From: Thermoplasmata archaeon
GTDB lineage: Archaea; Thermoplasmatota; Thermoplasmata; Thermoplasmatales; Thermoplasmataceae
Length of the DNA: 34,009 nt
Direction: 5' to 3'
Assembly (NCBI GenBank): GCA_021820405.1
Contig: JAKADQ010000005.1
Coordinates: 1-34,009, forward strand
Made by a program: the position numbers and the translations under genes. The notes beneath the pieces were generated by a model. It was not told the DNA's origin. It searched no databases and saw nothing but the letters and a program-made list of their open reading frames with translations. This document shows, in pieces, positions 5,549 through 26,640 of the stretch. Positions within the stretch are counted from its first letter, which is position 1, and each line of letters opens with the position of its first letter.

Positions 5549-8005
5549 TCAGTTCTCGTCTTTTAGGTCTCCTTCCTCCAGATTTTCTGCTTCATTCATT
5601 GTGTAGTTTGGCGTTAGCTCGTCCTGAGCGAAATGACACAGGTAATATCTATCCCCCACATCTATCATCTGCGGATCCTGGTCCTTACATATGTCTTTTC
5701 TAAAAACACACCTTCCGTAGAATCTGCATCCCGCCTTTGGATTGATTGCACTGCCTATCTCACCAACAATGGAAAGTTTTCTGTTTACCCATGAAGGATC
5801 TATACTGGGGACTGCGGATATTAGAGCCTTGGTATATGGATGAAGCGGATTACTTATTATTTCCTCAGACTTCCCAAATTCAAGCACTTGCCCAAGGTAC
5901 ATGACAACTATGTAGTCTGAAACATATCTGGCTGATGCTATGTCATGGGAGATATATAGGACCGTTATTCCTTTTTCACTCTTAAGGTCAATCAGGAGAT
6001 TCATTATGTTTGCCCTTATGGAAACGTCGAGCATTGAAATAGGTTCATCTGCAACCAGAAAAGATGGATTCAGCGTTATTGCCCTTGCTATGGACACTCT
6101 CTGCCTTTCACCACCTGAAAGTTCGTGGGGAAACCTTTCTGCATAATTTTCGGGCGGTCTCAAATTTGCTATAGATAACGCATTATAAATCTCGTCTTTA
6201 AGATCAAATTTTTCCCCCTTGGGAGATCCATCGGGTTCCTGAATATTGGAAATACTCTTTATTTCTCTTCTTGCCTGTATCTCCTTGGACTGTATTGCCA
6301 GTGGCTCTCCCACAATATCAAAAACAGACATTTTCGGGTTTATTGAGTCAAATGGATCCTGGAATATTAACTGTGCTTCTTTTCTGTATGTCTTATAGTC
6401 TGAACTATATTTGCTGGCCTTCGATAGATTAACCTGGATAGTCTCTCCGTCATTCCTCACTATCGTGAATTTAATTTCACCCTTTGTAGGCTCAATCGCA
6501 TTAACAAGCAGCCTACCAAGAGTTGTCTTTCCTGATCCACTCTCTCCAACAACTCCAATTATGGTCCCCCTTGGAATTCTCAGGTTGACGTTATCCACTG
6601 CATGCACAATAGGTTTATTTGGTCCTCCAAAGAGGTTTGTGGAAAGTGTTGAATGAACAGTGAAATATTTGGTTAAGCCATCCACTCCCACAAGAGTTTC
6701 ATTCTTATCTCCCGAATCATACCAGGTGCTGTTTTCATCAACATTCTGTGAAGAATTATATAGTTCCTCATTGACCTGGTCAAAGTGGCATAGGGAATAG
6801 TGATTCTGGTCAAGCATTTTTGGTTCTGGTTTCTTCTCGAAGCAGACTTCCTCAGCCATGAAACATCTGTTTGCAAAGTAGCACCCTTTCGGAGGATCTA
6901 TAAGATCTGGAACTGAACCAGGAATGCCTCTAATCCTCCTCTTTGTCATTTCAATTGACGGATAACTGTGCAGGAGGGCATAGGTGTAAGGGTTTCTTGC
7001 TTTGAGAAAGATATCCTCAGGTCTGCCATACTCCATTATTCTTCCTGCATACATAACTGCAACGAAATTGGCTAGCTGGGATACAACGCCAACATCGTGA
7101 GAAATAACGATCATGGACTTTATTGTTCCATTATCCTTCAGGTTCTTCAATTCTTTTATTATTTTGGCCTGTGTGATCACATCCAGACCAGTGGTTGGCT
7201 CGTCGGCTATCACCACCTTAGGTTTAAGTGCCAGAGCCATGGCAATGATTCCCCTCTGTTTCATTCCACCACTTAATTCGTGCGGGTATGAATCAAGAAA
7301 TTTCTTGTTGAATCCAGCAAGCCTGCAGCTCTCCTCTATTCTATTTTTCTCCAGCAGTTTCCTCTTCTGAGTAGCACTCATATTGGGTATCCTGGCTTTT
7401 AAGTCTTCCAGTAGATCCTGATAAATATTCTCCTTGAGCACTTCAAAATCCAGATCTTCCTTCTCCTCTTTCTGTTGAAGAGCTATTTCATAGGCATCTG
7501 CCCTCAGATTGCTTTCATTTATTAAATCTTCATCAGAAAACTCAGAAAGGTCAGCAAATGTTCCATGGATAGCAAAAACTTCTTCAATTTGAGATCTAAT
7601 TGTATGTACAGGATTAAAGGCATTCATTGCTCCCTGAAATATCATAGAGATTTCTTTCCACCTAATTTCAGCGAGCCTCTGATCCAGATCCCTTCTGTAC
7701 TTTTTTCTCATCTTTTTCTCTTTTGGATAATCCTTTGAATTAATGATCTCCTTATCCAGATACTCTATTCGCCCTTCTGTTTCTGCATTTTCTGCCAGTA
7801 GACCAAGCAGGGCTAGGGCAGTAGTCGATTTTCCCGACCCGCTTTCACCTATTAAACCTAAAATCTCGCCTTCTTTCAGGTCAAGATTAACTTGATCCAG
7901 GGCCTGAACCTTTCCATCCATAGTTTTGAAATGAACAGATAGATCTCTGATCTCAATAAGTGTTTTCTTATTCATTACATCAAATTCCTGCTTCTGCAAA
8001 TTCAT
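5549..8005 (-). CDS. fused oligopeptide ABC transporter ATPase (OppD-OppF)
   Basis: An 818-residue protein holding both nucleotide-binding domains of a peptide importer. Domain 1 has Walker A GESGSGKS (53-60), signature LSGGMKQ (244-250), Walker B VVIADEP (264-270) and switch H303. Domain 2 has Walker A GESGSGKT (487-494), signature LSGGERQ (629-635), Walker B VADEP (651-655) and H687. Each ends in an oligopeptide-transporter C-terminal segment with four Cys (375, 381, 388, 406 and 760, 766, 773, 790), a pattern that can bind an iron-sulfur cluster in some OppD proteins. Domain 1 has a charged insert of roughly 50 residues between Q-loop and signature. Most organisms encode OppD and OppF separately. 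The start may be ATG 8005 (ATGA overlap with oppC), TTG 7999 or ATG 7975; the Shine-Dalgarno spacing favours TTG 7999. Confidence 0.94.
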   Translation of the reverse strand: MNLQKQEFDVMNKKTLIEIRDLSVHFKTMDGKVQALDQVNLDLKEGEILGLIGESGSGKSTTALALLGLLAENAETEGRIEYLDKEIINSKDYPKEKKMRKKYRRDLDQRLAEIRWKEISMIFQGAMNAFNPVHTIRSQIEEVFAIHGTFADLSEFSDEDLINESNLRADAYEIALQQKEEKEDLDFEVLKENIYQDLLEDLKARIPNMSATQKRKLLEKNRIEESCRLAGFNKKFLDSYPHELSGGMKQRGIIAMALALKPKVVIADEPTTGLDVITQAKIIKELKNLKDNGTIKSMIVISHDVGVVSQLANFVAVMYAGRIMEYGRPEDIFLKARNPYTYALLHSYPSIEMTKRRIRGIPGSVPDLIDPPKGCYFANRCFMAEEVCFEKKPEPKMLDQNHYSLCHFDQVNEELYNSSQNVDENSTWYDSGDKNETLVGVDGLTKYFTVHSTLSTNLFGGPNKPIVHAVDNVNLRIPRGTIIGVVGESGSGKTTLGRLLVNAIEPTKGEIKFTIVRNDGETIQVNLSKASKYSSDYKTYRKEAQLIFQDPFDSINPKMSVFDIVGEPLAIQSKEIQARREIKSISNIQEPDGSPKGEKFDLKDEIYNALSIANLRPPENYAERFPHELSGGERQRVSIARAITLNPSFLVADEPISMLDVSIRANIMNLLIDLKSEKGITVLYISHDIASARYVSDYIVVMYLGQVLEFGKSEEIISNPLHPYTKALISAVPSIDPSWVNRKLSIVGEIGSAINPKAGCRFYGRCVFRKDICKDQDPQMIDVGDRYYLCHFAQDELTPNYTMNEAENLEEGDLKDEN

Positions 8006-24110: not shown

Positions 24111-25702
24111 TTATGTTTTTGACTTATCTTCACTGGATAGATATGTGAATATTAATCTAATCAATAATAAACTAAGGAGAAGAGTGATCCCTAGGAATAT
24201 AGAGGGTAGGTCAATTTGGGGAATTGCAAGTATTGCGCCAATAAAGAATGAAACCAATGGCGCAAAAGAACCGGAAATTATGGATATTGAAAATATTAGT
24301 ATCAGTCCGGCTATTCCGCCAAAGGAATAGATATTGATGTTTGTGGTCTCCTTCGGTATCCTGGAAATTATAAACGACAAAGTGACAAATGAGGAAAAGA
24401 AAAAAGCCAGTGCAGCGTCTGCAATTATGAGCACAGCATATATGATATCTCCAAAATTTGCGCCGATCATAACAATAACTATTGGAATAGCGAAGAAAAT
24501 GAATATTATAAGGGATGAAAGTGCCTTAGAGAATATCATCTCAGTTTTTGTAATCAGCCAAATCCTCAAATTTGCAAAACTTTTTCCTTCCATTACAAGA
24601 GACTGAATCGAATAAAAAGAAACTGACAGTGTTGTGAGCAGGAAAATTGCAATATAGGTAAAAAGTGGAGGGAAGTTTCCAAATCTTTTATCAACAAAAA
24701 CCTCCAGAAGTGCGGGAAGACTAAAAAATACCGGAAAGAAAAAGCTTGAAAGGTTTGTAAGATCTCTTGTAGCGAGCTTCAGATCCTTCATGGTCAATGA
24801 TACTATGGAGCTGAACTTCCTGCTATTTTTTCTTTTTATATGCTTATTCTGGAAAGTTGCCATGTTTCGATCGAACAGGTTTTCCAGAATATTCCTGGCA
24901 AGAAAGTAAGCAATGAAAATCGAAAGAATAAGATAAAAGAAACTCCATGAAAAGGATGCAACAATCGAATCCACATTTACATGATTAGTGAAAGCAATAA
25001 AGCCTATATCAAGAACAGGAAACACATAATTTAAGGGATACTGGACTGAGAAGGAAAACAGAAAGATATACCGCGGGAAAAATACTGTAACGTCAAAAAA
25101 TATGAATATGGAGATAAGACCAATCATTTTAAGGGAATTGAAAATACCAGAACCTATTCTTCCACTCCAATTCCCTCTTTGTGAAATGATGGACAGAAAG
25201 GACCCAACGGAAAAGCCCAGAACTATACATGTTGCACCCCAGATCATCTGAATTAACACATTATCCAGGTTTCTGTTAATGTAATAATAAAATACCATGG
25301 GTGGTATATCAAGAAGCATAGTATACACACCAGTGTTTACAAACCAGGAGGCAGGTAAAACCATGCCACTATCCTTAGTGAATAGGAACTTCCCGGGGTC
25401 TATGATCTTTTCATTCTTCAGGGTCTGAATCCACATGAATGAGCCAAAGGTGTTAATCCCAAATTGATAGAGGAATATGGAAAAACCAGTTGCATAGATT
25501 CCTTTGTAGGATACACTTATACCGCTATATGTGATAAGCAATGAAAATAACAGAAAAATGGCACTATAGATAAGGCCAGATCTGAATATGATATGCTGAA
25601 TATAGTTCTTGGAGAATGATCTTTTTTCAAACTCTCTATTAAATCTCTCAGATGATTTTAGTGCCTGGTATCTGTATTCCCTGTTGATTAATGTCGATTC
25701 AT
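24111..25702 (-). CDS. ABC-2 type exporter permease, 5' end apparently frameshifted
   Basis: A membrane protein of about 530 residues with about twelve hydrophobic segments and a polar central loop (KHIKRKNSRKFSSIVSLTMKDLK), the pattern of ABC-2 permeases. From 25700 to 24111 the frame is open. The first 53 residues (starting ESTLINREYRYQALK, then a first helix) look genuine but contain no ATG, GTG or TTG. An ATG at 25702, seven bases after a good Shine-Dalgarno site (AGAGGA), is one base out of frame and meets TAA after four codons. Adding one base after it, e.g. GG for G, gives MESTLINRE. So either one base was lost (mutation or sequence error) or an ATA/ATT codon initiates. Substrate unknown. 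Paired with the ATPase upstream. Confidence 0.75.
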
Positions 25703-25705
25703 AAA

Positions 25706-26485
25706 TTATTCCTCTGATCGAAATAAAGAATCACCTAATTTTTTTGCCCTCTCGAGTATATCCTCTTTTCCCGTTATTTGAAGGAACAACTTTTCCAGAA
25801 AACCTCCCTCTCCCTCTTCATTTAATTCATCCATATTTCCCTCCAGTATTTTTTTCCCCGAATCAAGTATCTGGACTCTGTTACACATTATTTCGGCCAG
25901 ATCGAGTATATGTGTAGAAAATATTACAAAGTGACCATTCTGGATCATTTCCCTTATAACCTCTTTAACAACAATTATAGATGTCGGGTCAAGGCCATTC
26001 AGGGACTCATCTAAAATTAAAACCTCTGGTTTTGAGGAAAGCGCAGAAAGTATGGAGATTTTCTGTTTTGTGCCAAACGACAGCATTCCGATTGGCCTAT
26101 CCATGGTCTCTGTCAGATCAAGTGCATCTGCAATACTGTACTTTATACTCTGATATTCCTCACCGTTAACACCTCTTATCCCGGCATACAGGTCGCAGTA
26201 TTCATTTCCAGTTAAGGTTTCATACAGTACTGGTGTCTCAGGAACATAAGCTATATGTTCCCTGGCAAATTTTTCATAGAACTCAATTTGATTGCCATCA
26301 ATTTTAATGGTTCCAGAATCATACTTGATAATCCCAGAAATTATTCTCAGGGCCGTGGTTTTACCGGATCCATTTGGACCAATCAGGCCTTCAACCAGTC
26401 CACTATGGAACGAAAGATTCAGTTCAGAAAGCCCTATCTTGCTTCCGTATTTTTTTGATATATTTTCAGCTTCAATTTTATTCGT
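25706..26485 (-). CDS. ABC-2 type exporter ATPase without a canonical start codon
   Basis: About 259 residues with a full ABC ATPase: Walker A GPNGSGKT (36-43), signature LSFGTKQ (135-141), Walker B VLILDE (155-160) and switch H192. The first in-frame ATG is at 26104, inside the domain, and would remove Walker A. Upstream of it the frame is open to a TAA at 26508-26506. The family-like N-terminus NKIEAENISKKYG is preceded by ACG (26485) where ATG is expected, and that ACG is about 24 bp from a good TATA box. Candidates are therefore ACG 26485 or ATT 26476. Either non-canonical initiation or a lost start codon (T to C) explains this. It should power the adjacent permease; the cargo is unknown. 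Confidence 0.8.
   Translation of the reverse strand, partial: TNKIEAENISKKYGSKIGLSELNLSFHSGLVEGLIGPNGSGKTTALRIISGIIKYDSGTIKIDGNQIEFYEKFAREHIAYVPETPVLYETLTGNEYCDLYAGIRGVNGEEYQSIKYSIADALDLTETMDRPIGMLSFGTKQKISILSALSSKPEVLILDESLNGLDPTSIIVVKEVIREMIQNGHFVIFSTHILDLAEIMCNRVQILDSGKKILEGNMDELNEEGEGGFLEKLFLQITGKEDILERAKKLGDSLFRSEE
25710..25715 (-). promoter_or_regulatory. Shine-Dalgarno site pointing to a frameshifted permease start
   Basis: AGAGGA, at the end of the ATPase gene, is followed after seven bases by the ATG at 25702. This is ideal spacing and marks the ancestral permease start even though that ATG is now out of frame. Confidence 0.55.
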
Positions 26486-26503: not shown

Positions 26504-26514
26504 AAGTTATAATA
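26504..26514 (-). promoter_or_regulatory. TATA box of the ABC-2 exporter operon
   Basis: TATTATAACTT on the minus strand is centred about 24 bp from the ACG at 26485. In this genome's leaderless pattern the start codon would be expected there. The remaining gap to 26640 shows no gene. Confidence 0.45.
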
Positions 26515-26640
26515 GTTTTCAAAATTACAGATAAGTTCAATACGAAAAGTAAAAATATTTTATAAAACAGTTTCAAAATAAAAATTTCAGACTGATAAAT
26601 GTTCAAGTTTGAAATTGAATTAAAGTTCTCCTGAGTGTCG

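Follow-up and report, generated by a model that had tools for sequence, protein, structure and literature searches.

The window analysed here, a stretch of 34,009 nucleotides that forms contig C92 of its source assembly (1.35 Mb in 130 contigs, 72.5% complete), carries on its minus strand the gene for an ABC transporter ATPase with the following features.

25706–26485, minus strand: gene of the ABC ATPase (PF00005), taken to begin at ACG and ending at TAA; intact frame with its N-terminal part under purifying selection
26506–26508, minus strand: in-frame TAA stop upstream of the ACG
26483–26485, minus strand: proposed ATPase start codon ACG, which precedes Walker A by 35 aa and is invariant in the four gene-carrying members of the genus
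26357–26380, minus strand: Walker A motif GPNGSGKT
25708–25706, minus strand: ATPase stop codon TAA, end of the frame

The frame opens after the upstream TAA and continues CTT CGA GAA CAT TCT TTT ACC ACG AAT AAA ATT GAA. An earlier note on this DNA had claimed that no ATG, GTG or TTG precedes Walker A in frame, and this proved correct: the first such codon is the ATG at 26104, 127 codons past the ACG and well beyond the motif. The note had also described the gene as otherwise intact, in agreement with a PF00005 profile score of 96.3 bits (Pfam cut-off 25), the presence of Walker A (GPNGSGKTT in the translated frame) and a frame that runs unbroken to the TAA.

That note was limited to the ATPase and overlooked the same anomaly in the permease gene directly downstream, which is laid out as follows.

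24111–25724, minus strand: gene of the 12TM_1 permease (PF09847), taken to begin at ATT; its first ATG, GTG or TTG is the TTG at 25541
25722–25724, minus strand: proposed permease start ATT; relative to the RYxALK motif it stands at −17 aa, within the −15 to −17 aa at which relatives begin
25730–25735, minus strand: GGTGAT, a Shine-Dalgarno sequence inside the ATPase gene; its GGTGA begins at −11 from the ATT and is conserved in 4/4 carriers

The PF09847 profile scores 64.6 bits on the permease, against a Pfam cut-off of 33.2, and the frame opens after the TGA within GGTGAT, with 24–27 bases of the ATPase gene still to come. At the permease's family position none of the four carriers shows a canonical codon; all have an identical ATT there, whose conservation is partly shared with the ATPase, as the A of the ATT also lies within an ATPase Leu codon. 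The complement of the anti-Shine-Dalgarno sequence, GGTGAT, occurs in each of the four, at the modal spacing: among 115 starts of this genus that abut another gene, GGTGA occurs between −15 and −4 in 13, versus 2 in a control interval, most commonly at −11 (6) and then at −9 (5). The 16S tail, GGATCACCTCC, could be read in G005, G006 and G010 and looks normal.

All 12 genomes of the genus were searched for orthologues of the ATPase, and four carry it: the source genome (G000), G010 (75% identity to the source copy), and G006 and G005 (66%). In the other eight, no close homologue of the ATPase or the permease was found. The comparison of the same locus in relatives, which the earlier note had proposed, gave a uniform picture, with ACG at the homologous position in 4/4 carriers and ATG in none. 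The codon preceding it differs among the four species (ACC, ATT, AAT, AGT), and in G005 and G006 an in-frame TAA lies two codons upstream of the ACG. Loci L001 and L009 have no canonical start at all before Walker A; L010 has GTG codons at −19 and −5 aa, while in L011 a GTG lies at −5 aa, all too late for the conserved first strand. Both frames are intact, conserved, and without ATG, GTG or TTG at the family start position in the four species.

Synonymous sites are saturated across the three lineages. Only 21 of 166 fourfold columns have an identical third base in all of them, and 2 of 14 Thr columns show the same codon throughout; ACG is also the rarest Thr codon (989/7974). The invariant ACG is notable given these near-randomised third bases, although a single column alone is weak evidence, and the four species represent no more than three lineages, G005 and G006 being close, and possibly one ancestral event. 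For ATPase codons 2–120, pS is 0.68 and pN 0.20 between G000 and G010, and between this pair and G005/G006 pS is 0.63–0.74 and pN 0.23–0.28. Low pN together with high pS ahead of any canonical start codon indicates that the N-terminal part of the ATPase is selected as protein.

Relatives in other genera provide a reference for where such genes begin. Of 62 loci collected, one was set aside for lack of the ATPase and two because they were cut off by contig ends, leaving 59 evaluable. In every one, the region −30 to −50 aa relative to Walker A contains an ATG, GTG or TTG; none of the four species has such a codon at the family position. In 57 of the 59 the canonical codon falls between −33 and −37, and the ACG of the four species, at −35, thus lies at the family start place, as the earlier note had supposed. 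These 57 codons comprise 22 TTG, 20 ATG and 15 GTG, so that TTG or GTG is found in 37/57, counts that are not independent since nine of the non-ATG cases come from one genus (g10). Some ATG occurs within −30 to −50 aa in 27/59. Background shares of ATG starts, obtained by a conserved-column method, were 90/112 in G020, 89/111 in G036 and 46/54 in G073, and 80–85% among the genes sampled in genera g10 and g1; within the present genus the figure was 228/274, with ATG preferred where several candidates were possible. Weak start codons therefore seem, on these comparisons, to be customary in this ATPase family. Among permease relatives from other genera, 25/26 have ATG, GTG or TTG 15–17 aa before RYxALK, and the start usually overlaps the ATPase stop in an ATGA or TTGA arrangement. 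One locus outside the genus, L056 (G015:C28), has CTG at the permease start place (GCA TTC CTG ATC), with the next ATG 12 residues on.

Upstream of the ATPase a promoter-like element is present.

26507–26520, minus strand: promoter-like GAAAACTATTATAA, with TTATAA spanning −27 to −22 relative to the ACG

TTATAA stands at −27 from the ACG in both G000 and G010, and in 159 intergenic regions upstream of conserved starts in the genus its matches peak at the same position (6/19 matches). All four species conserve AACTATT[AT]TA[AG] (AACTATTWTAR) at the same distance from the ACG, and all have C or T directly before its A. No Shine-Dalgarno sequence was seen before the ATPase start. The earlier note had described a leaderless-like arrangement with a TATA box about 24 bp before the ACG; the element is indeed there, at −27 to −22, but a trained 14-base promoter matrix does not single the site out, scoring −35 and −15 equally in L001 and favouring −17 in L009, L010 and L011. 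Leaderless transcription of the ATPase mRNA is plausible from this arrangement. It would be surprising in combination with ACG, which is expected to be very weak on a leaderless mRNA because in a haloarchaeon a UUG start was reportedly inactive on mRNA with a very short leader (PMC4574771). As a separate observation, an ATG 20 nt before the ACG in L010 and L011 opens a 12-codon out-of-frame reading frame over the ATPase start, possibly by chance.

We screened starts across 1.06 Mb sampled from G000, G005, G006 and G010, which yielded 140 orthologue groups comprising 218 reciprocal pairs, and flagged any group with no canonical start over at least 15 aligned residues. Four groups were flagged and 136 were not. 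On inspection, one flagged group (G005_C9/G010_C8) proved to be a frame overlapping the end of the upstream gene, with its own ATG further in, and another, a 71-aa frame whose N-terminus we take to be that of L39e, likewise keeps a canonical start, its true ATG lying further in. With these, 138/140 groups keep a canonical start, and the ATPase and permease, adjacent genes, are the only ones among the 140 sampled groups truly without one.

The initiation machinery offers no sign of a general change. aIF1 was found in 9 of the 12 genomes, including all four carriers, where it begins with ATG and is near-identical in sequence. An initiator tRNA with a CAU anticodon was found in G000, G005, G010, G002 and G009; the pattern search gave no match in G006, and a CGT pattern match in G010 (L195) proved to be no tRNA. 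Altered machinery was accordingly rejected as a cause, and the use of non-canonical starts seems to be gene-specific, because aIF1, the initiator tRNA and the 16S tail look normal where found.

We propose, with a probability of roughly three in four, that this two-gene ABC-2-type exporter operon is translated from conserved weak near-cognate codons: the ATPase from ACG, probably on a leaderless mRNA, and the permease from AUU preceded by a Shine-Dalgarno sequence. RNA polymerase would start at or near the A of the ACG, so that the mRNA would open directly with this codon. The usual initiator Met-tRNA (CAU) would decode both this codon and the permease AUU inefficiently and insert Met; its middle mismatch with ACG would yield few ATPase molecules. 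GGUGA inside the ATPase gene would place ribosomes at the permease AUU, which has a third-base mismatch with the initiator tRNA. Both exporter subunits would be scarce, and might rise jointly when initiation is less stringent (aIF1/aIF2). With Met replacing the coded first residue, the expected N-termini are (M)NKIEAENISK for the ATPase and (M)SIRGIIYESTLINR for the permease. It is from sequence that we infer the codon used, the leaderless transcript, the N-terminal Met and a purpose in low output and perhaps stringency control. More tentatively, ACG and AUU may be selected archaeal starts that put both subunits under one stringency control, rising only when aIF1/aIF2 discrimination is relaxed, with the ACG working on a leaderless mRNA unaided by any Shine-Dalgarno sequence; we consider this fuller version possible, but on balance doubtful. 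A counterpoint is that aIF1, which is reported to make initiation complexes on non-AUG mRNA less stable (PMC6237735), is present and conserved in the carriers.

The earlier note had left two options. A true non-AUG start, at the ACG or the following ATT, is supported, and of the two codons the ACG is favoured on three grounds: its distance from the TATA element, the pyrimidine directly before its A, and its agreement with the family start position. Were the ATPase instead to begin at the ATT or ATC three codons later, the mRNA would have a leader of about 9 nt and the ACG would stay untranslated. That Ile codon is present in all four species, and AUU is a known bacterial start (infC), but the codon varies between ATT and ATC whereas the ACG is invariant, TTATAA would sit at −36, no Shine-Dalgarno sequence is seen before the Ile codon, and many relatives begin 1–5 codons ahead of the matching residue, so that we regard this start as unlikely. 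The other option, a single T-to-C loss of the start, is rejected by the finding of ACG in four separately assembled species whose synonymous sites are saturated between three lineages. A decaying operon would fit the absence of close homologues of either gene from 8 of the 12 genus members; the intact frames and low pN show neither the relaxed selection nor the broken frame expected of pseudogenes, and an identical ACG in four independently assembled genomes rules out a sequencing error. Lost starts, by either route, are thus very improbable.

Two further possibilities invoke recoding. The permease might be made as an ATPase-permease fusion, through −1 frameshifting near the ATPase stop, rather than from its ATT. 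Its frame is −1 relative to that of the ATPase and opens 8–9 codons ahead of the ATPase stop, and the internal Shine-Dalgarno sequence may act as a stimulator, as such sequences can in frameshifting. Nevertheless, the in-frame X XXY YYZ heptamer of programmed −1 frameshifting is absent in 4/4 species, the ATT stands where the family starts, a place mostly taken in relatives by ATGA- or TTGA-type overlaps, and a fusion leaves the ATPase start unexplained; we think it improbable. Ribosomes might also enter the ATPase frame from an upstream AUG or UUG by frameshifting, given that one common other frame has ATG (L010, L011) or TTG (L009) at −20, but L001 lacks a start at −20, the overlapping frame that does have a start in this locus ends at +5, and by eye no common slip run precedes the conserved first strand. 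Editing of the ACG to AUG has a precedent in the C-to-U change of ACG in chloroplasts (PMC9845219), but C to U cannot make AUG from the permease ATT. Upstream entry and editing together strike us as highly unlikely.

Initiation of the ATPase at ACG and the permease at AUU would have partial parallels elsewhere. The bacterial infC gene starts with AUU, an arrangement that underlies autocontrol by IF3 and limits expression; this start is said to have been described by Butler in 1987. The exporter shares with infC a near-cognate start limiting expression, but differs in being an archaeal transporter, in involving two consecutive genes, in using ACG besides AUU, and in having neither a known regulator nor an indicated role in initiation control. 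Viral and mammalian genes also use ACG, the same near-cognate codon, but depend on scanning 40S ribosomes, unlike what is probably a leaderless archaeal mRNA here. The leaderless mRNAs of Saccharolobus, Haloferax and Thermoplasma likewise have a TATA-like box about 27 nt upstream, and the ATPase has no Shine-Dalgarno sequence that we could see; yet a review of archaeal initiation gives AUG, GUG and UUG as the starts in all mRNA types, leaderless ones included (PMC7531240), whereas the ATPase has ACG. Operons of an ABC-2-type ATPase and a 12TM_1 permease (PF00005, PF09847) in relatives share gene order, motifs and start positions with ours but use ATG, GTG or TTG, usually with an overlapping permease start, in contrast to the ACG and ATT of the four species.

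Searches of one open-access library turned up no report of an archaeal ACG start, which does not prove its absence from print. Conserved near-cognate initiation as such is already known, and the present case would be a further form of it rather than a new system. Gene finders commonly consider AUG, GUG and UUG only, and if our reading is true, intact archaeal genes may be mis-started or overlooked in annotation. The conserved ACG/AUU pair would then also be a natural substrate for testing how aIF1 and aIF2 discriminate between start codons, also where the mRNA is leaderless.

The neighbourhood of the exporter is also conserved. In the four species (26485–22174 in the window) it lies directly upstream of genes which, from their sequences, we take to encode eS19, a PDCD5-like protein, L31e and aIF6. 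An exporter upstream of eS19 was not found in the other eight members of the genus (the flank being short in G001 and G002), and in those exporter-less members with an upstream flank eS19 is preceded by other genes. Elsewhere in the window, at 5549–8005, an 818-aa frame seems to fuse two oligopeptide-transporter ATPases, its halves presumably DppD- and DppF-like.
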